Below, in pieces: positions 4,865 to 64,000 of a stretch of DNA of 64,000 nt (positions are counted from its first letter, which is position 1; each line of letters starts with the position of its first letter). Position numbers and translations under genes: made by a program. Source of the DNA: Hysterangium stoloniferum. Lineage: Eukaryota > Basidiomycota > Agaricomycetes > Hysterangiales > Hysterangiaceae. The notes below the pieces were generated by a model that worked only from the letters and a program-made list of their open reading frames with translations, ran no database searches and was not told where the DNA came from. The DNA lies in the NCBI GenBank assembly GCA_015178975.1, contig WHVD01000006.1, positions 1,426,001 through 1,490,000 of the forward strand. The letters run 5' to 3'.

Positions 4865-5530
4865 TGTAAAGGGTTGAGTAGTTGACCACTCAATGTACGA
4901 TTGTTATTGACTAGCGATAGTACAAAATACAATCAACTAGTAGTTAAGATGTAGATTACGATCGACCTTTAAGGTGCAATCGGTAGATAATTACAAGGGT
5001 GGATCGATCTTACAGTACGATTCGATTGTGTAGCTAGCTGGGCTGATGGCCGAGTAGATAAGAGAAAGTATATATTGCGTGAGAGAGAGAGAATATCCTA
5101 AGAAAGTGAGTTACGATGGATATTCTTACCACACTAGGCAAGAGCTTGAAGTCAAGTCGAATAATAGTAACTGACTTCGACTGTTTCAGTGCGAAGTGTA
5201 GTTACTGTAATTCTATGAAGAGAGATAGAGTGGAGGTTTGTTTTAGACAAGACCCTGAACCAGTACTTGCGTGTGCAGGTGATGGTTGTTGGGGTTGAAA
5301 AGTGTCTGAGTTTGTATCGTGTGACTACTACTGTGACATACACATACTTCTTGTGGGTGAGAGTGCCCACAAGCATACATGGACTCTCGAACTAATAAAA
5401 GGCGTATTTATGAGTGATAAAAAGAGAATAAAAAATATAAAACAGAAAGGAAATAATGGCATTATAAAGCGGCTTAAGCTCTAAGGCTTAGAGCCTTTAG
5501 TCATGCCTCCTATGTGACCTATCCTTCACA
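4865..5530 (-). repeat. LTR-D, 5' LTR of the truncated family-D element
   Basis: Read on the minus strand it starts TGTGAAGGATAGG and ends CCCTTTACA. It shares the block around GTGCCCACAAGCATACATGG and both termini with the solo copies at 17265-18006 and 43131-43738. Gag starts 55 bp beyond its inner end. The flanking 5-mers (ACCAC left, CTGAT right) do not match, as expected for one LTR of a longer element. On its right it abuts family-A pol, cutting that element inside RNase H. Confidence 0.75.
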
Positions 5531-8190
5531 CTGATGGAGAAGTCCACCCTGTGGCTTTTCTGTCCTGGACTTTTACTGGAGCAGAGCTCAATTACAATGT
5601 TCATGATAAGGAACTCCTGGCAATTTTTTCAGCTTTCAAAGTGTGGCGACACTATTTGGAAGGCTCAGGAACTCCAATTGACATTGTAACAGATCACAAA
5701 AACCTGGAATACTTTTCTACAACAAAACTTTTGACCCGTCGGCAGGCCCACTGGTCTGAATATCTATCCACCTTCAATATGACTATCCATTTTTGACCTG
5801 GCCCTCTCAGCGGCAAACGACACTTTAACTAGATGATGGGACGTCTATCCTAAAGAGGGGAGCAACAACTATGCCACGGTAAACCTGCACAACCTGAAAC
5901 CCATTGTCACAAATCAGCAACTTACCACATCAGTCTGCACAACTTTCCTCGTTAATCCCATTGTCTGTGGAATTATCATTATGGATATTGAGAAGTTACA
6001 TCAAGATATTCTATCGGCAATTCCACTAGACCAGATAACTAAAGCTCACCTTGACAATCCCGTGGACCCCAATCAACCCTGGTGGTCTCTTGATCAGCAT
6101 GGTTTCATTAGACTTGAGGATCGCATCTATGTACCAGACTCCGACAGCCTCTGCCTCAGGATCCTTCAGTACAAACATGATCATCCACTTTCAGGACATT
6201 TTGGGTACAACAAAACTCTATCATTAATAAGAAGAGAATACACTTGGCCTGGACTCTGTGGATTCATTAAGCACTATTGTAAATCTTGCACTACTTGTCC
6301 CTGCTTGAAATCTCAGTGACACAAGCCATACAGCCTTTTGAAACAACTTCCAGTACTGGAACACCCATGGAATTCTATCTCTATGGATTTCATTGAACAC
6401 CTACTGGACTCCAAAGGCTTTTCCACCATTCTAGTTGTTGTTGACAGATTCTCAAAACAAGGTATATTCATCCCTACATATGATACAATTACATCCATGC
6501 AGTTAGCGGAACTTTTTATTATCCACGTATTTTCCAAGCACAGAGTTCCATCCCATGTAACTTCCCACTGAAGATCAGAGTTCGTATCTCACTTCTTTAG
6601 ATCCCTCGGGAAATCCTTGGACATGAAATTACATTTCACATCTGGACATCACCCAGAAGGCAACGGACAAACCGAACGCGTCAACCAGACATTGGAACAA
6701 TATCTCCGCATATATTGCAATTATCAACAGGACAATTGGAAATCCTTGTTACCACTTGCAGAATTTGCTTACAACAATGCACCCTTGGCCACTACTGGCA
6801 TTTCCCCGTTCTTTGCAAATAAAGGATATAATACAAATATTACAGTACATCCAGAACGAAATCTCACCTCTGCTCACGCTCAAGAGTTCACCACAGACCT
6901 CCACGAGCTCCACGAGGAACTCTGGACTGCAATAAAGTCCACCCAAGAGCAATACCAACATTCAGTGGACAAACACTGGATCCCGCCACCCAACTTCAAG
7001 ATTGGCGATCGTGTTTTTGTCAAAGCTCAATTCTTCCGGACTACCCATCCATCAAAAAAGCTTGCTGAAAAATATTTAGGCCCGTTTGAAATTATTGCAC
7101 AAGTAGGTTCAGTCTCTTGGACCCTACAGCTTCCGGATAGCATGTGCACGGTACACCCGGTATTTCATGTTTCTGTTAAGAACTAGAAACTGACTAATGT
7201 CGGTGGCTGACGGGGACCGATCGGAAGGACTTGGCTTCAGCTTATGTGCTGCGCCCTCGCAATTATCCGTTGGTTGTCCTTAAATTTCAGATGGGCAAAG
7301 ACTAAATCCTAAGAAGAACCTTTCAGCGAGATACCGATCGGAACCGAAGGACAAGTCAAGTGTCGGGCCAAGGGGTCGGGGCCGAGAGTGGGCGAGCGCA
7401 CACGAAGGCGGATGGGGGATTCTGAGTTGAGACTGCTGCAGATGTATGAGGGTATTCTGAGTTGATATTCTGATTGCCTAGTAACTACAACTACAGCGGG
7501 TTCATATACAAGTAACAGGCATCTAGAAAGTACTAATGGGGAGAAGGGCGGAAAACGGTATTAGCATTAAGCTTGACTAGGAATGGGAAGTTTATGATTA
7601 GTTCGGAGGCCGATGATAACCGAGAATGGAAATTACGATAAAAGGAAATAGTTCAAGGACTACAAATATAGATAGACATATGTGAAACATAGAGTGGAAC
7701 AGATCAACATAATAAAAGGGACGTATCAAAACATAACCAGACAGAAAGGTGTAGTCGGGTTTGATTGACCGGAAGGCATACGTCAGCATCGGGGGACCGA
7801 CGGCCTCCAAGATCTTGTCTTGTTGAAGACGTATAACTATGATATACCATCGGGGACCGTCGGCGTGCGAAGGGTTGTGACACAGTCATAACAGTTTCTA
7901 TGTTAGAACCTTGTACTGCTAACACTATCCTGGATCGCATGCAATCTCCACCTCCTCTGGTCATTATTGACAGAGAACCTGAGTTTGAAATCTCACAAAT
8001 TTTAAATTCGAAAATTGACAAGCATTGATGCACTTGTAAACTGCTTTACTTGGTCAAGTGGGTGGGTTATGAGGGCACCGATGAAGAAACCTCATGGATT
8101 TTGGCCACAGAACTCGGTAATGCCATGGAAATTGTTACTGACTTTCATACAGCTTACCCACTCAAACCTGGACCACTATCGTCTCTCTGA
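5531..8190 (+). pseudogene. Family-A chromovirus pol, 3' part (RNase H, integrase, chromodomain), broken
   Basis: The remnant begins inside RNase H, around the region matching [20 protein letters not shown] at 63,560. It continues through the zinc-binding HHCC region of integrase (5981-6319), the integrase core with SMDFIEHL for the first Asp and GHHPEGNGQTERVNQTLEQ for the Glu (6338-7186), and a chromodomain with IIDREPEFE (7960-8190). The second catalytic Asp region reads VTSH-stop where related copies have VTSD. Stops and a frameshift inactivate it, and a solo LTR-B (7174-7893) splits integrase from chromodomain. Removing that insertion and one GTTTC copy rejoins the frame (VFHVS then MLEPCTANT). 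It nearly repeats 63480-64000. Confidence 0.92.
7174..7893 (-). repeat. Solo LTR-B inserted in chromovirus pol
   Basis: The 720-bp copy runs from TGTTAAGAACTAGAAACTG to CACAGTCATAACA. It is flanked by the 5-bp duplication GTTTC on both sides (7169-7173 and 7894-7898). No internal sequence remains, so it is a solo LTR left by LTR-LTR recombination. It lacks the 16-bp minisatellite present in the copies at 11089 and 14992. Confidence 0.93.
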
Positions 8191-8386
8191 CCGCACTCCA
8201 TGGATCCCGTGTTACATTTGGACTCATTTTCATTATTCCCTGTCATCCTATGTCTCTCTTTGCTTTTACAGGTTCTGACATGTGTTTCAAGTCCTTAAGT
8301 GGATTTCCCACCGACTTTGATCTTATGTTTTTCTCACACTTTACTCTTACTTTTATGTTCAAAAATTATTAAACTTTTATTTTATT

Positions 8387-9702
8387 TCAATCTACATTTA
8401 TGGGGCTATGTTTTTGCCCAACCTCAGCCATCTATTGAGGAAGCTCCACTACCTCCGCAGGCACCCCATCCTCATCCAACCCGGCATCCTCAGAACTCCC
8501 AGCTTGCGGCTCCTCATATATGTATCCACCAAACTCTGCTAGGAAATTCCAAAATTCCGAGCAGAGCCCATGGAGCTCATTCACCACCATAATTTGAACC
8601 TTGGTGCTTTTTCAGAGCAACTCATTCTGGGCCTCAATGCCCTCGGCGATCTGCCCCAATACATCATCCAACCCAAACATCCCATCTGTCCCGCTAACGT
8701 CCCACACCCTGGACCCCATGGGTTGCTTGTGGATGAGTGAGCACCTCACCTTGAGGTGCACGCACTGGTAGCACCCCAGTCCCCACCCGGACTTCCAATT
8801 ACACTCCGTGTTCCGGTCATTGCAACTGGAACACCACAGATCATTCCACATCGGCAGGCAGACTGGTGCCGCTTTCCTTGCTTTCTGTTGATCACGGTCA
8901 GTTCCCACAGATATCCCACAGACCCAAGACTTACCTTCTGGGGGCTCTCCAGCTCCCCCTCAGACTCAGACTCCACCTCTGTCACTTTGTGCTGAAAATA
9001 CAAGTCAGTTGAATTCGACAAGTTGAATCATTGGGACTTACCTTTCCCACGGCAACCATGGCCCTGTCTGCAGCCACCCGGGCTTTTTCTGTGGCCACTC
9101 ACATGGCCTCCTCCTCATCTCTCTTCCTCTGCCTCTCCGCCTCTTCCTCCATGGCCAAGGTCACCTGGTACTCCCTGTAAGGGCCACCTCAGTAGAGCCT
9201 GTGGTACTCACACTAGACTAACTAACAGAGGGATATCCAGAGTATATTAGGTAGCTACTAGATACAGATAAGGACTACTCACCTAACAGAGGGATATCCA
9301 AAGAGAAAAGAATAAGGAGGCGCCTCTGCTAGATGTTCCAAAACATGGGGGTGTCTAAAAATAGAATGACAGCTTACCCTCAATGGTCCATAACTATCTA
9401 CTCTATCCTAGAATATTCCTAGAGGATGGAACAGTCCTCTGAAAAATGTGAGAAAAATATAGGAAACAATATAAAATAACCTCTAAGGGTTAGTAAGTAT
9501 AGACATGACAAAAACCAAGAGACAAGACATAGAATGTCCCCTTACACTCCCTGTCTAGGGCTTCCTCCACCCCCCTCACCTCCTTTTCCGCCTCTTCATG
9601 TTGTCGGCGCTGTTCCTCTCGCTGTGCCAGTATTTGGGCTGCGCTGAGTGGCACCCGGTATGGAGTGCCCATGGAGAGCCCGGCGATTGGCATGGGTCCC
9701 AT
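8387..9702 (-). pseudogene. Antisense gene inside the chromovirus 3' region: coiled-coil / Zn2Cys6-like protein (copy 1)
   Basis: This gene lies between pol and the 3' LTR but reads the opposite way, converging on pol with 197 bp between the stops. From ATG 9702 it encodes a Gln/Glu/Arg-rich, probably coiled-coil segment (AQILAQREEQRRQHEEAEKE), an acidic VESESEGELESPQK, six cysteines spaced Cx2Cx6Cx9Cx2Cx6C (CSSC...C...CYQC...C), a C-terminal FWNFLAEFGGYIY region and the end SPINVD-stop. Two GTAAGT...AG introns (about 9000-9047 and 8897-8942) keep phase. A TATA box sits 52 bp upstream of the ATG. TGA and TAG codons and a 371-bp insertion break this copy. The cysteine spacing fits the fungal Zn2Cys6 cluster, but DNA binding is inference. 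Confidence 0.75.
9176..9546. mobile_element. 371-bp TG...CA element (small solo LTR or MITE) inside the antisense gene
   Basis: The element starts TGTAAGGGCCAC and ends GTCCCCTTACA, an 8-bp terminal inverted repeat (TGTAAGGG). It is flanked by the 5-bp duplication CTCCC (9171-9175 and 9547-9551). Removing it with one CTCCC restores the antisense gene frame across LDRE-YQV. Internally it has two copies of CTAACAGAGGGATATCCA. The TG/CA ends with a 5-bp duplication favour a short solo LTR; a MITE cannot be excluded. Confidence 0.8.
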
Positions 9703-9753
9703 TATGGCGAGATGGGGGTGATAAAGAAGAAGAAATTTCATTTTTTCAAATTT

Positions 9754-9880
9754 TTATATAGGCTTGTCGCATCTGAACCTTACCTTCCAGATCACATGAC
9801 TCTTTGACACATACGTGTAACCGACATGACTTTTGACACATGCGCGTAACTGACAAGAACCTTATCAAGGTCTAAAGCCT
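9754..9880 (-). promoter_or_regulatory. Putative promoter of the antisense gene (TATA box plus tandem upstream repeats)
   Basis: On the minus strand CCTATATAAAAATT lies at about 9750-9762, some 52 bp before the ATG. The same sequence at the same distance precedes copy 2 (53643-53656). Upstream, a ~35-bp unit containing ATGTGTCAAA and GTCATG occurs twice in tandem; copy 2 has the same arrangement. Conservation in both copies supports a real promoter. Function is inferred. Confidence 0.6.
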
Positions 9881-9896: not shown

Positions 9897-9910
9897 TAAA
9901 GGGAGGGTAC
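9897..9910 (+). other. Polypurine tract before the 3' LTR-A
   Basis: AAAGGGAGGGTAC lies immediately before TGTTACGACT. The equivalent purine run precedes the LTR in the minus-strand element (complement at 53497-53510) and, as a G-run, before LTR-C at 18188. This is the expected plus-strand primer of an LTR element, and it fixes LTR 9911-10734 as a 3' LTR in plus orientation. Confidence 0.75.
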
Positions 9911-10734
9911 TGTTACGACTGGAATTCCCACCAGACTCCGGGCACTAACTTATACACACCTGCACCCTATACGCACCAATTGTCATATTACCAGAATTCC
10001 CACCAGACTCCGTACATCAGACTTGTCTGTGTTCGACTTTGTTACGTTGTGTATCAGTCACCAGAATACCCACTGGACTCTGTCCCTGTCTATGTCCAAC
10101 CTCATCCCATGCATCAGTCACCAGACCCCTCTCGGAAAACCCGTCATCCCTCTAACAGAGCCCCGTTCCCATTTTAGCCAAATGACCTGTCATGATTTGG
10201 ACTCCGCTCCCACTCCATTTCCCATTATGGTTTATGATTTGTCACGATTCAGACTCCACTCCATTCTGTCCCATTCCTAACACCAAATTTGGTGTTTACT
10301 ATTCTCGTTTTATGTTTTGCTAGTTTCATTTCATTATTACTGGATTTGGTATGTCATTCATTCCACAGTCTATACAGTCTGGCAGATGTTGTACATACAA
10401 TCCAGTCAGAAAATCAGCTTAGATTCCCCCCAGTAATCTAATACATTTTCCACTCTAAACTCCTACTTGAATTACACTGCTCACGCTAGTCGGAGCCCAC
10501 AGGCTCTGGTGCATCTATCTCTCTTATTTATCTTGACTCCCGACCTCTTGACCCATGACCTCCGACCTACGACCCCTTGACCCACGAACCCCACCTGGAC
10601 TCCCCGGGATTCCCATCCGCCTGTCTGAAATTGGACAACATGATCTCACAAGGGCACAGCCTATAAGCTGAAGCCAAGTCCTACCAGATATTCCGCAGGT
10701 TTCTCCAGAAACCTGCTGTGTATGTACCCTAACA
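9911..10734 (+). repeat. LTR-A, 3' LTR of the degraded plus-strand chromovirus
   Basis: The 824-bp copy begins TGTTACGACTGGAATTCCC and ends TATGTACCCTAACA. It aligns along its whole length with the copies at 18276, 58155 and 59111. It follows a polypurine tract. The shared CAGCCTATAAGCTGAAGCC motif lies ~75 bp from its 3' end. The matching 5' LTR is gone, because the element is cut at 5531 by LTR-D. Confidence 0.9.
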
Positions 10735-53510: not shown

Positions 53511-53642
53511 TGCTGAAGTCCCAAAGAGGCTCTAGAACATGATAAAGTTTGTCAGCTATGCATGTGTCAAAGAATCATGTCAGTTACATGTATGTGTCAA
53601 CTGGTCATGTGATCTGGAAGGTAAGGTTCAAATGCGATGAGC

Positions 53643-53656
53643 CTATATAAAAATTC
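53643..53656 (+). promoter_or_regulatory. TATA box of antisense gene copy 2
   Basis: CCTATATAAAAATT, about 53 bp before ATG 53703, same sequence and distance as in copy 1. Upstream (53555-53620) two tandem units with ATGTGTCAA and TCATGT are also present. Confidence 0.6.
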
Positions 53657-53702: not shown

Positions 53703-54646
53703 ATGGGTCCAAACCAATGCCTCACAGACCAGTCCCCAGTGCTGGGCCCTCCACCGGCCCCCTATATTGGGCTCCACTCACTGCTGCCCAAATCTTGGTG
53801 CAGTGGGAGGAGCAGCATTGATAAAGGGAGGAAGTGGAGAAGAAGGCCAAAGAGGCTGAGGAGGACTTGGAGAGGGAGTACCAGGCGGTGCTGACCATGG
53901 AGAAAGAGGCTGAGGAGCAGAGAAAGAGAGATGAGGAGGGGGTGGTGTGAGTTGCCACAGAACATGCCAAGGCAGCTGCAGAGAGGTCCACAGTTGCCAT
54001 GGGAAAGGTAAGTCCAGCAATTTGCCTAATCAAACCTTACTGACTTCTGGTTTCTAGCACAAAGTGGTAGAGGTTGAGTCGGAGTCTGAGGGAGAGCCTG
54101 AGAGCCCTCAAAAGGTAAGTCTCAGGTCTGTAAGTTTCCGGGTACTGACCACACTAACAGAAAACAAGGCAAACGGCTCCAGTCTTCCTGGAGGCAAAGA
54201 ATGACCCACAGTGTTCCAGCTGTAACAACTGGAACACAGAATGTTACTGAAAGTCCAGACAGGGACTGGGCTGTTGGCCATGTACACACCTCAAAGTGAG
54301 GTGCTCACTGGTTCACAAGCCCACAAGGTCTGTGGCATGGGAAGCAGGTTGCTCAAAAAAGCCAGGGGGCCTAGAGGTCATTTTAGGGTGGATAGCTGCA
54401 GGCATAGAGGCCTAGAACCAATTGCTTGAAGAGAGCAACTGGATGCAGGAGACTGTAATGGAGATGCTCCAGGGACTCTGCAGGGAGTTCTGGGCATTCT
54501 TGGTGGAGTATGGTGGGTATGTGTATTCAAAGCCCCAGGTTGGGAGTTCCAGGGAGGATGAGGATGGAGTCCCCAGGGAGCTGGTAGAACTCCAACAGGA
54601 GTTAACTGAAGTTGGGCAAAAGAATAGTCCTATAAATGTAGATTGA
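53703..54646 (+). pseudogene. Antisense gene inside the chromovirus 3' region (copy 2)
   Basis: The counterpart of 8387-9702 in the minus-strand element, again opposite to pol. Parallel blocks: AAQILVQWEEQ, EEVEKKAKEAEEDLEREYQ (coiled-coil-like), HKVVEVESESEGEPESPQK, the six cysteines CSSC-x6-C-x9-CWPC-x6-C, FWAFLVEYGGYVY, and the end GQKNSPINVD-stop at 54646. Both introns (about 54008-54057 and 54115-54159) start GTAAGT and end AG at the same places as in copy 1, though their interiors differ. A frameshift in the first exon and TGA/TAA codons (including the Trp inside the cysteine cluster) make it non-functional. A TTTAATAA-type A/T-rich 3' flank follows the stop. Confidence 0.75.
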
Positions 54647-55688: not shown

Positions 55689-56324
55689 TAGGACTTGACA
55701 GACATGTCAGAAACCTGTAAAAGCAAAGAGAGACATAAGGGTGACAGGGAAAAGTGAATCCAACATATACATACATGGGGTCCATGGAATGCAGTTAGAG
55801 AGAGGATAGTGGTCCGGGTTTGAGTGGTAAGCTGTGTGAAAGTCAGTGACGATCTCCATGGCATTACCAAGTTCCATGGCCAAAATCCATGATGTCTCTT
55901 TGTCAGTGTCCTTGTAACCTGCCCACTTGACCAAGTAAAGCAGTTTACAAGTGCATTGATGCTTGAGTCTAAAATTTGTAAGATTTCAAACTTGGGTTCT
56001 CTGTCAATAATGACTGGAGGAGGCAGGAGATTGCACATGATCTGGGATAGTATTAGCAGTACATGGTTTTAGCATGAAAACATGAAATACTGGGTGTACC
56101 ACACACATGCTATCTAGAAGCCATAGGGTCCATGAAACTGAACCTACTTGTGCTCTTATTTCAAATGGACCTAAATATTTTTCGGCGAGTTTCTTTGATA
56201 GATGGGTAGTCCAGAAGAATTGAGCTTTGACAAAAACATGATCACCAATTTTGAAGTTGGGTGGTGGCATCCAGTTTTTGTCCACTGAATGCTGATATTG
56301 CTCTTGGCAAATTTTATTGCAATC

Positions 56325-59959: not shown

Positions 59960-61720
59960 TTATGCCACCAAGAAGAAATACATACACGTGCACAGGCATC
60001 ATTACCTGGACTGTCAACTCTTCATTCCCCGTTAACTTTGTATACCAGTCAGACGCTTGCAAACCAGTCGGAAACCACGGAAGAAGCCTGTATCGAAGAA
60101 GTCCCGGAAAACCAGGACGAATCCGAGCACGAGGACGAATCCGTGGCCCCCGACAAGGGCAAAGGTGTCAAAAATCCTCTGCCTATCGAATGACCGCACG
60201 CAAGGGATCCTACTTCTAAACTTTTAGCAGGTACTATAGATAAATTCATAACGCACCTGCTTGAAGAATGAAAGAAAAAGGAACAAGAACCTCCACGGTC
60301 AAAAGTCAATGCTCCGGAACCCTTCACGGGTTCCAACCCAAACAAACACTCTACTTTCCTCATGCAATGTCACTTCAATTTCCATGATCGTTCCGCTGCA
60401 TTCTCCATGGACTCCCGAAAAGTCAACTATGCACTTTCATATTTGTTGGGATCCATGTTGAAATGGTTCGAACCGGCTTTTAGTGGGATTTCTGAGGAAG
60501 AGCCGCTCTGGCTTGAAAATTGGGAGGCTTTTGTTGAGGAGCTTGAAACCAACTTTGGCCCATATGACCCAACAGGAGAAGCCGAGAATAGTCTCACAAA
60601 TCTTCATATGAAGGACATGCAGTGCATCACGGACTACATCATCCAATTCAATAATCTTGCAGCTCGTTGTCAGTGGGGCGATCCCGCTCTCCGCCACCAA
60701 TTCTATGCCAGTCTGCTGTCCTGCCTTAAAGACGAAGTCTTGAAAGGAGAAGATGGCAGGCCAAAAACCCTGTCCTGTATGCACCTCAAAGCTCAAAACG
60801 TGGATGCATGTTATTGGGAACGTGGATGCATGTTATTGGGAACGTGGATGCATGTTATTGGGAACGTGGATGCATGTTATTGGGAACGTGGATGCATGTT
60901 ATTGGGAACGTGGATGCATGTTATTGGGAACGTGGATGCATGTTATTGGGAACGTGGATGCATGTTATTGGGAACGTGGATGCATGTTATTGGGAACGTG
61001 GATGCATGTTATTGGGAACGTGGATGCATGTTATTGGGAACGTGGATGCATGTTATTGGGAACGTGGATGCATGTTATTGGGAACGTGGATGCATGTTAT
61101 TGGGAACGTGGATGCATGTTATTGGGAACGTGGATGCATGTTATTGGGAACGTGGATGCATGTTATTGGGAACGTGGATGCATGTTATTGGGAACGTGGA
61201 TGCATGTTATTGGGAACGTGGACACATGTTATTGGGAACGTGGATGCATGTTATTGGGAATGTGGATGCATGTTATTGGGAACATTGTGTGGGAGTTGCC
61301 CGCGAGACCTCCGCGGACAAAGTAAACAAGTCCACGGCCAATAAAAACAACAACAATAATTTGTCAACCAGCAACCAGAACTCCACGCAATCTGACAAGA
61401 AGAATGATAAAAAGTCTTCAAACAACAACAACAACAAGGACAACAAGGACAATAACAAGGGTCAACAGTCTGGCAAGCAAGCTGGAAAACCCGACCTCTC
61501 AGGCAAACTCGGACCCGATGGCAAATTAACCCCACAGGAAAGACAACATTATATGGACAACAACCTCTGTCTCTTGTGCGGGAAACCCGGTCATTGAGTC
61601 CCGGAATGTCCACTGGCAAAAGCAAACTCTTCAAAGGGTCGAACAGCCAAGGCCTCCACGGAAACCCCGTTGAAGGACAAACTGGCTTCTGACTCGAAAA
61701 AAGAGTAAGCAACCCCACAG
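59960..61720 (+). pseudogene. Family-A gag with minisatellite insertion
   Basis: Gag starts near 59962 (MPPRRN). After a frame change it reads EEVPENQDESEHEDESVAPD, VNAPEPFTGSNPNKHSTFLM, the capsid-like WLENWEAFVEELETNFGPYD and MQCITDYIIQFNNLAARCQW. It then enters a 22-bp tandem repeat (60797-61280), continues VGVARETSADKVNKS, an Asn/Lys-rich stretch, and ends at a zinc knuckle CLLCGKPGH-stop-VPEC where CGA/CGG Arg has become TGA (61596). Further TGA codons interrupt the N-terminal part. Without these the layout is that of a chromovirus Gag: capsid, basic linker, CCHC. Confidence 0.88.
60797..61280 (+). repeat. 22-bp minisatellite, 22 units, inside gag
   Basis: The unit is AACGTGGATGCATGTTATTG + GG, with 22 copies nearly identical (one has GACACA for GATGCA, the last starts AATG). 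All three forward frames are open through the array. Each unit is 22 nt, so the peptide repeats every 66 nt as a 22-residue unit (NVDACYWERGCMLLGTWMHV + IG). 21 extra units equal 462 nt, so the gag frame is kept. Confidence 0.95.
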
Positions 61721-61725
61721 ACTCC

Positions 61726-64000
61726 GTGCGGGTTGGGGGTTGCATTGCCTCTCCACGCATTCAAGAGTTTACTTGTCTCAACGCATCCGCTCTTTCACAT
61801 TCTGATTCATTTTTCATTAAACTTATGTCTAATATGATTCCGAAATTTGTTTTTTCAGCTCTTATAGATTCAGGCTTAACTCATTATTTTTTAGATACAA
61901 AATTCATGCAAAAAAATTCTTTGTCAACTTATTTGATAAATCCCGTCGGCCTCCGCCTCTTCGATGGCACAAGTAATTCAGTTGTTACCCAAGCTTGTGA
62001 TTTACCCATCTGTTTCCCTTGTGGAACATCTCAATTGGTCACTTTCTATGTGACCCAGTTAGACTCAAGTTGCTCGGTGGTCCTAGGACATAACTGGCTT
62101 ACCCGCTACAATCCGTTGATTGACTGGATAGCTATGTAACAGTATAACATTCCGGACTCCCGCGGCAGCCGAGGAAACTGCACCTGTCTCGGCCTCCACG
62201 GCACCCATGGCCTTCCTGGCACCTGCAGTCTCGAGGACTCCTGTGATCCCTACGGCACCAATGGCTTCCCCAGAACCCACGGCACCTCCGTCCATTTCTC
62301 TGATTAATGCTGCAGCTTTTATTAGGGCTTCAAAAATGGATGGGTCCCAGGCATTCACTATCAACTTAAAAATTGATGAAGCAACTGGACATTTTTCAAC
62401 CCCGGTATCTGAATCTGAGCAAGCTGCTGACCTAGAAGGCATCCTGGAGAAATATCATGACTTTTCAGATGTTTTTAGCAAGCGAAAAGCTGACTGGCTT
62501 CTGCCTCACTTAAAAATCAATCTTGAAGATGGTGCCCAGCCACCCCTAGGACATATTTACCCGCTCTCGTCCACGGAACTATCCGCAATCCACGATTTCC
62601 TGGATGAACATTTGTCCATAGGTTTTATCCAACCCTCAAAGTCTCCTTTTGGAGCACCTGTTCTGTTTGTCAGAAAAAAGGATGGATCCCTTTGACTATG
62701 TGTTGATTTTAGAGGACTCAATGCTGTCACCAAAAAGGATACATATCCACTCCCACTTATATCTGATCTGCTTGATGCTCCACAGAATGCCTGGATTTAC
62801 ACCAAAATAGATCTCAAGCACGCCTATCATTTGGTCCGGATTGCTGTGGGTGACAAATGGAAAACCACTTTTAGAACCCATTATGGGGCCTTCGAGTGGT
62901 TGGTGATCCCCTTTGAACTCACCAATGCTCTGTCTGTTTTTCAGCATTTTATCAACGACATTTTCTCCGACATGCTCGATGTATGTGTCATTGTTTACTT
63001 GGACAACATTCTTATCTACTTCGAGAATCCCGCGGAACATGACAAACAAGTCTGTGAAGTTCTCCGGAGGCTCAGACAACATGGTTTATTCGCAAATGGT
63101 AAAAAATGTACTTTTGACATGGACTCCATGGAATAACTAGGTTTCATGATGGGACCCGATGGACTCCGCATGGATGAAATTAAAGTGCAAGTCATCAAAG
63201 ATTGGCCCGAACCCTGAAAGGTTAAAGACATACAATCCTTCCTTGGCTTTGCCAATTTTTACTGACATTTTATCCGTGGATATTCTGACATCATGGTACC
63301 CCTTACCTGTCTTACGCATAGGGGTACTCCGTGGAATTTTAACGATAAATGTCAAAAAGCTTTCAATCTTTTAAAAAATTCTTTTTCTACAGCTCCTATT
63401 CTGTTGCATTGGAAACTGGACCTCCCGCTCATTGTTGAAACGGACGCCTCAGATTATGTGCTTGGAGCCATTCTGTCTATCCAGGACTCTGATGGAGAAG
63501 CCCACCCCGTGGCTTTTCTGTCCCGGACTTTTACCGGAGCAGAGCTCAACTACGATGTTCATGATAAAGAACTTCTGGCAATCTTTTCCGCTTTCAAAGT
63601 GTGGCGACACTATTTGGAAGGTTCAGGAGCTCCTATTGACATTGTAACAGATCACAAAAACCTGGAATACTTTTCTACCACAAAACTTTTGACCCACCGG
63701 CAGGCCCGTTGGTCTGAATATCTATCTGCCTTCAACATGATTATCCGTTTTCGACCTGGCCATCTCGGCGGCAAACCCAACGCTTTAACTAGACGATGGG
63801 ACGTATATCCTAAAGAGGGGAGCAACGACTATGCAATGGTAAATCCGCACAACCTGAAACCTATTTTCATGAATCAACAACTTACCGCATCGGTCCATGC
63901 AACTTTCTTCATCAATCCCATTGTCCATGGAATTATTATTATGGATATCGAGAAGTTACATCAAGATATTCTATTGGCAATTCCACTAGACCCAATTACT
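61726..64000 (+). pseudogene. Family-A pol: protease, RT, RNase H, start of integrase (continues beyond window)
   Basis: Protease: ALIDSGLTHYFLD (61856-61894) with the catalytic DSG and VVLGHNWLTRYNP. Reverse transcriptase: FIQPSKSPFGAPVLFVRKKDGSL, then [58 protein letters not shown], and [12 protein letters not shown] in place of the YLDD catalytic box. RNase [52 protein letters not shown]. Several R codons read TGA. The region from 63480 repeats 5531-6080 closely. Inactive as it stands. Confidence 0.93.

Follow-up and report, generated by a model that had tools for sequence, protein, structure and literature searches.

A gene that lies between pol and the 3′ LTR of a fungal retrotransposon, on the strand opposite to pol, is almost certainly a real, spliced protein gene under purifying selection: its dN/dS is 0.23, its third codon positions diverge like its introns, and the GT..AG borders and branch motif of the introns are kept. 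Two broken copies of the gene lie in the window, the whole 64,000-nucleotide stretch of Hysterangium stoloniferum DNA that was analysed (source assembly, 111 Mb). The fungus, a member of the order Hysterangiales, has a truffle-like habit. It is called ectomycorrhizal in the accessible text of PMC7550596.

The host element is of the Ty3 type (Metaviridae). RT, RNase H, and integrase are all represented by fragments in the window, and these come from different, broken element copies; rve_3, taken alone, stays below its Pfam cut-off in the window. The parts of the element are the following.

5518-5793: RT_RNaseH domain (Pfam, E 1.8e-26)
6572-7183, plus strand: integrase tail, Tf2-1-like SH3 domain (PF24626, E 9.2e-19)
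62696-63133, elsewhere in the window: RVT_1 domain (E 2.6e-24)
8020-8244, plus strand, opposite to antisense copy 1: chromodomain-like end of pol (tblastn match, copy L009)
55707-55982, minus strand, opposite to antisense copy 2: chromodomain-like stretch in the element that carries copy 2 (PF00385, E 0.0017)
9898-9907, plus strand: putative polypurine tract, read from the sequence and assigned by its position just before the 3′ LTR
9911-10734, plus strand: 3′ LTR, starting TGTTAC and repeated elsewhere in the window

The chromodomain-like query piece scored 18.7 bits against PF00385 (E 0.0017; cut-off 25.1), and in most copies having both matches a chromodomain-like match follows the integrase tail. 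The window also contains a gag-like frame (60272-61597), the first part of which matches Retrotrans_gag (E 1.4e-9). Within this frame, at 60797-61283, a 22-bp unit is repeated 22 times at 98%; because 22 is not a multiple of three, all three frames give the same 22-residue repeat.

The antisense gene itself, and the parts of its two window copies, are located as follows.

8387-9702, minus strand: antisense gene, copy 1 (broken), ATG at 9702 and TGA at 8387
9702-9042, 8991-8935, and 8884-8387, minus strand: exons 1, 2, and 3 of copy 1, from an alignment of 56 copies in all
9041-8992 and 8934-8885, minus strand: introns 1 and 2 of copy 1 (50 nt each, GTAAGT..AG)
8741-8833, minus strand: six-cysteine cluster Cx2Cx6Cx9Cx2Cx6C in exon 3 of copy 1
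9749-9762, minus strand: TATA box of copy 1, CCTATATAAAAATT, starting at 9762, about 60 bp before the ATG
9177-9545, minus strand: 369-bp repeat that interrupts exon 1 of copy 1, with 7-bp AGGGAGT duplications and ends GTAAGGG..CCCTTAC
53703-54646, plus strand: antisense gene, copy 2 (broken), ATG at 53703 and TGA at 54646
53703-54007, 54058-54114, and 54161-54646, plus strand: exons 1, 2, and 3 of copy 2
54008-54057 and 54115-54160, plus strand: introns 1 and 2 of copy 2 (50 and 46 nt, GTAAGT..AG)
53642-53655, plus strand: TATA box of copy 2, CCTATATAAAAATT, starting at 53642, about 60 bp before the ATG

Copy 1 is flanked by a plus-strand pol tail on one side and by the polypurine tract and LTR on the other. 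A first-pass annotation, made from the letters of the window alone, had placed both copies at the correct coordinates (9702 to 8387, minus strand; 53703 to 54646, plus strand) and had rightly described each as an antisense gene between pol and the 3′ LTR with a TATA box, an ATG, and three exons; the GTAAGT donors, the cysteine spacing, and the SPINVD-stop that it reported were likewise confirmed in both. A 57-nt exon 2, the cluster Cx2Cx6Cx9Cx2Cx6C, and the C-terminus SPINVD-stop are common to the two copies. This shared plan is far beyond chance, for it recurs in most of the 56 distinct copies compared.

Neither window copy is open. In copy 1, exon 1 contains a TGA as well as the 369-bp insertion, and exon 3 is interrupted by a TGA and a TAG. 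Copy 2 has stops in exons 1 and 3, and its ATG is out of frame with the remainder of exon 1. The 369-bp repeat is itself young and numerous, many of the best 40 scored of 272 genome candidates being 98-99% identical. Since its ends resemble splice signals, GTAAG a donor and ACAG an acceptor, it could possibly be removed as an intron.

Genome searches for further copies scored the best candidates only (40 of 739; 40 of 641 with copy 2 as the query; 150 of 1122; and 150 of 1376), and all counts from them are lower bounds. Among the best-scored 150 of 1376 places, the matched stretch was free of stops in 108 and an identical, stop-free, 170-residue exon-3 frame was present in 19 (both hand counts). 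For at least five of these 19 (C16, C25, C33, C103, and C545) a contig start is less than 2 kb away, and a degree of assembly redundancy is therefore possible. The one young copy of the 19 that was read, L084, is open through all three exons, from the ATG to SPINVD (294 aa). It consists of a 327-nt exon 1, a 49-nt intron 1 (GTAAGT..CAG), a 57-nt exon 2, a 49-nt intron 2 (GTAGGC..CAG), and an exon 3 of 166 codons; its TATA box is 60 bp before the ATG, and the reading frame continues across both exon joints. The lack of any intact frame in young copies, which the first-pass annotation had named as evidence against its reading, is thus contradicted by the whole frame of L084 and by the places that share its exon 3.

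The observed/expected CpG ratio is 1.01 in the L084 gene; in 654-bp parts of copies 1 and 2 it is 0.40 and 0.08, respectively. Given this contrast and the intact state of L084, the window copies are old and decayed, and part of the family was amplified recently, copies with intact frames having multiplied. Strong CpG loss marks old family copies such as copy 2, and suggests methylation-driven decay of these elements. In some places exon 3 lies inside longer open frames (235 residues in L083, 339 at C93:151668, 341 at C222:55279, and 217 at C456:10103), which are possible fusions with neighbouring sequence.

For comparative analysis, 74 loci were reduced to 56 distinct copies, 18 being dropped as the same or as identical in the test stretch. 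A chromodomain or integrase match is found downstream on the opposite strand in 48 of the 56; 41 have an LTR match no more than 400 bp upstream of the antisense ATG, and 34 have both; the LTR edge is usually about 210 bp from the ATG. In most copies, then, the gene is on the opposite strand, after pol and before the 3′ LTR. A downstream match on the same strand was seen in five of the 56. Four copies (L014, L017, L022, and L025) have the integrase tail downstream on the same strand as the antisense gene and at equal distance from it; a rearranged element thus seems to have been copied.

Expression and splicing signals are widely kept. TATAWA is present in 42 of the 56 copies, in 33 of these at 58-62 bp before the estimated ATG, and an ATG stands at the start column in 42. 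GTAAGT stands at donor 1 in 52 copies and at donor 2 in 40; CAG or TAG at acceptor 1, and CAG at acceptor 2, occur in 53 copies each; GT..AG borders are found at both introns in 48. Exon 2 is exactly 57 nt in 51 of the 56, and the intron lengths vary (39-59 and 36-52). A CTRAY branch motif occurs in 47 of 56 first and 54 of 56 second introns (9.5 and 7.1 expected by shuffling). By these features the introns appear to be of the spliceosomal type, with the frame kept across the joints. Two GenBank hypothetical proteins of H. stoloniferum match the antisense gene, one of them matching contig C334 at 99% over residues 65-201. Model P0002, to go by its protein sequence, uses the intron 1 joint to connect exons 1 and 2, and is without the cysteine part; model P0001, which matches L083 at 99%, is without these exon joints.

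Over all exons, dN/dS is 0.234 (1539 pairs, 56 distinct copies), clearly not near 1, the value that the first-pass annotation had taken to speak against a gene; exon 1 alone gives 0.266. The ratio is 0.233 within subfamily A (860 pairs), 0.400 within B (91 pairs), and 0.227 between A and B (588 pairs). For exon 3, the coding frame gives 0.223, and the other five frames give 0.776, 0.804, 1.362, 1.128, and 0.308. The coding frame of exon 3 is stop-free in 24 of the 56 copies, compared to 0 or 1 of 56 for the other frames; a stop is present in the remaining 32, which fits old insertions but would fit idle sequence too. Mean pairwise differences at codon positions 1, 2, and 3 are 0.237, 0.257, and 0.405 in exon 1; 0.137, 0.156, and 0.316 in exon 2; and 0.205, 0.166, and 0.346 in exon 3. 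The means for the two introns, 0.30 and 0.34, compare with 0.32-0.40 at third codon positions. The first-pass annotation was mistaken in one respect here: intron interiors, said not to align, do align over the 56 copies, and have diverged as much as third codon positions.

These data bear on two readings in which the frame would mean nothing. That the conservation is an artefact, borrowed from the sense strand or left by recent common descent, is extremely improbable. The single reverse frame at 0.308, which might be held to favour it, has third positions that share the register of those in the coding frame; it contains 161 stops, and none of the 56 copies has it open. The remaining four control frames range from 0.776 to 1.362, and exon 1, taken apart, gives 0.266. 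Sense-strand conservation or drift alone is refuted by the frame controls and by the divergence at codon positions. The other reading, that antisense transcription or double-stranded RNA alone matters and the open frame is incidental, is improbable. An antisense transcript over the 3′ end of the element could hinder the sense transcript or feed RNA silencing, and antisense transposon RNAs are reported, in the accessible text of PMC10648671, in a fungal plant pathogen. However, a non-coding RNA would show no codon structure, and with a dN/dS of 0.23, third positions as free as introns, and both cysteines and frame kept, this reading fails as the sole function. A protein product, under selection, remains by far the preferred interpretation.

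The predicted protein is about 290 aa long. Exon 1 codes for an Ala/Glu/Arg-rich coil, exon 2 for an acidic Ser-Glu linker, and exon 3 for the six-cysteine cluster and, after it, for helix-like stretches and an acidic tail. The six cysteines have a mean conservation of 0.98 (permutation p 0.0007), and all six are present in 48 of the 54 readable copies, so the conservation of the cysteines, also at stake in the first-pass annotation, is borne out. In the LKxRC of the second half, the residues L, K, R, and C are each conserved at 0.98 or more. The domain is likely to be a zinc-binding one.

Fungal Zn2Cys6 proteins follow the spacing CX2CX6CX5-12CX2CX6-8C, and Cx2Cx6Cx9Cx2Cx6C fits it. The cluster thus resembles the Gal4-type family (PF00172) in having its spacing in the usual range and a basic patch in one half. 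Membership, which the first-pass annotation had proposed, was not upheld beyond the spacing. The PF00172 cut-off of 21 bits was missed by copy 1 (15.3), by five copies scored (10.1-15.5), and by L084 (10.1); the profile matches nine of nine copies of A1 at E up to 10 (best, 0.019). In contrast to the family, the best stretch in each copy covers one half only, and the order of the halves is swapped, with cysteines one to three aligning at about profile positions 16-32 and the last three at about 2-18. Comparison by hhalign with eight Zn2Cys6 domains of the same genome gave a probability of 3.3%. The cluster may therefore work like a zinc cluster, but we do not assign it to PF00172. Fold prediction for the window exon-3 fragment (95 aa, single sequence) gave a mean pLDDT of 43.8, too low to be informative.

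Searches for relatives among 5.8 billion proteins with L057 exon 3, a nine-copy profile, and L084 exon 3 (E up to 10), by a method that needs shared 5-residue words, returned only two proteins, both of H. stoloniferum. A PDB search gave no meaningful match, a plasmid collection no match, and the protein and PDB searches no relative with a known function. Cysteine-cluster proteins of unknown function occur in other Agaricomycetes. It could be argued that the gene is a captured host zinc-cluster gene carried as a passenger, for it contains introns and is cysteine-rich, and the host genome has 42 Zn2Cys6 domain matches. We consider such an origin unlikely: the hhalign comparison with the eight domains showed no host relative, only the two H. 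stoloniferum proteins matched in the protein searches, and selection persists across the subfamilies (see the A-B ratio above).

The gene has diverged more than the pol sequence next to it. In 33 collinear copies (the same 528 pairs), the mean dS is 0.916 for the antisense gene and 0.342 for the pol tail, and dN/dS is 0.226 and 0.368, respectively. This set was obtained by dropping 23 of the 56 copies for low identity or cover against the L021 pol tail (mostly insertions, inversions, or poor alignment), a filter that favours low pol divergence; it replaces a pol dN/dS of 0.524 over all 56 copies, many of them misaligned. In a sliding comparison, divergence climbs at the ATG and drops again past the stop, and is erratic in the LTR part further upstream, which aligns poorly. 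Decay of CpG as the sole cause was rejected, since the excess persists when only transversions are counted. Within A, the median transversion differences are 0.062 at exon 3 third positions, 0.137 at exon 1 third positions, and 0.131 in introns, as against 0.018 at pol third positions and 0.019 in the LTR (109 pairs). The corresponding A-B medians are 0.174, 0.216, and 0.224, as against 0.047 in pol. Values are raised as well in the 150 bp before the ATG (0.055 within A; 0.146 A-B). Silent transversions are thus about three to eight times commoner in the gene than in adjacent pol, for 282 of 351 and 122 of 162 pairs kept, the rest having been dropped for high pol distance, which favours the contrast. 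Without the pair filter and with all third-position differences counted, the gene still exceeds pol (0.282 to 0.162 within A; 0.459 to 0.262 A-B).

Trees of the gene and of pol share two well-supported splits, and four of ten gene splits conflict with two of four pol splits. We read this as mosaic evolution, in which the gene module would have been exchanged between element lineages; a locally higher mutation rate may be an alternative to exchange. Co-evolution of gene and LTR was considered for 17 copies, in which r was 0.52 for LTR and gene and -0.02 for LTR and pol. The latter rose to 0.33 after misaligned windows were dropped, and no claim is made. A wider scenario can be offered only tentatively: a fungal chromovirus may have evolved its own spliced antisense regulator with a new, half-swapped six-cysteine zinc cluster, several long-separated versions of which sit on nearly the same LTR and pol chassis, the module being exchanged and diversifying against host silencing or rival elements. 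If true, the module would be the analogue, in a retrotransposon, of an arms-race module.

As to function, the balance tips slightly toward a regulator of the element that binds DNA or chromatin in the nucleus, a role suggested by the domain plan and by the plant and retrovirus parallels in the accessible text of PMC11963269. The combination of a cysteine cluster, basic in one half, with acidic regions and coils would suit such a factor. Introns of this gene run against the genomic RNA; they should therefore outlast retrotransposition, and splicing would be confined to antisense messages transcribed from integrated copies. The protein would be made from integrated copies rather than from packaged RNA, and would both report on, and act from, integrated DNA. 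It would enter the nucleus, bind zinc through its cysteines, and act in trans on element DNA or chromatin near the LTR, where it would tune transcription of the element or shield it from host silencing. Should it be a regulator, we would lean a little more firmly toward an activator or anti-silencer than toward a self-limiter.

A protein acting on RNA or particles instead of DNA, by binding element RNA or by partnering capsid or integrase to limit copy number, is rather unlikely, yet has points in its favour. RNA and proteins are among the possible ligands of cysteine clusters, contacts with proteins would go well with the long exon 1 coil and with the helix-like stretches toward the C-terminus, and no DNA-binding family exceeded its cut-off in the Pfam scans. 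Against it stand the nuclear product of maize Grande and the predicted DNA binding of TRP28 (both from the accessible text of PMC11963269), as well as the near-invariant LKxRC residues of the cluster. Action on DNA or chromatin remains the reading we favour.

Element-coded proteins acting in trans can work in either direction. VANC, of Arabidopsis VANDAL transposons, relieves silencing, and p22 of Ty1 limits copy number. They belong to different element classes and are not antisense genes of this kind, and so serve as models for possible function only. HBZ of HTLV-1 is a bZIP protein made from a spliced antisense message whose promoter lies in the LTR. Like HBZ and the antisense genes of deltaretroviruses, the fungal gene would give a spliced antisense message that starts near the 3′ LTR and codes for a nuclear regulator, this role being inferred for the fungal protein. 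It differs from HBZ in having a cysteine cluster and not a bZIP domain, and a separate TATA box about 150 bp inward from the LTR instead of a promoter in the LTR.

The closest parallels are in plants. According to the accessible text of PMC11963269, Retand elements carry antisense ORFs between pol and the 3′ LTR, with TRP28 in 97% of clusters; maize Grande makes a nuclear antisense product from its own promoter (citing Gomez-Orte et al. 2013); and antisense genes in HTLV are named as a parallel. The arrangement as such is therefore already known. The fungal gene resembles those of Retand (TRP28, PF04195), maize Grande, and rice RIRE2 in being antisense to gag-pol, in occupying the interval between pol and the 3′ LTR, and in being kept in most copies (PMC11963269, accessible text); DNA binding is suspected there, as it is here. 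Pfam scans of the exons gave no PF04195 match, so the gene is not a Retand TRP28 gene and is alike in arrangement only. Retand elements are plant non-chromoviruses with a POL-3′LTR region of 2.9-6.6 kb (PMC11963269, accessible text), whereas in the fungal element the distance from the chromodomain match to the LTR is about 1.3 kb where collinear. The chromodomain-like end, the six-cysteine cluster, and the two introns also set it apart from Retand, the word intron being absent from the accessible text of PMC11963269.

In the literature searched, judged from listings and with most subscription journals outside its coverage, no fungal case was found. What differs here is that the host is a fungus, that pol has a chromodomain-like end, and that the gene has introns and a cysteine cluster. 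Such a gene in a fungal Ty3-type element would imply a wider origin, or a wider persistence, of the arrangement, into which probable nuclear regulators are recruited again and again. The gene exceeds pol in silent divergence, a sign of module exchange that can be traced across further genomes, and young, intact copies in an ectomycorrhizal fungus would make the function of such genes directly testable.
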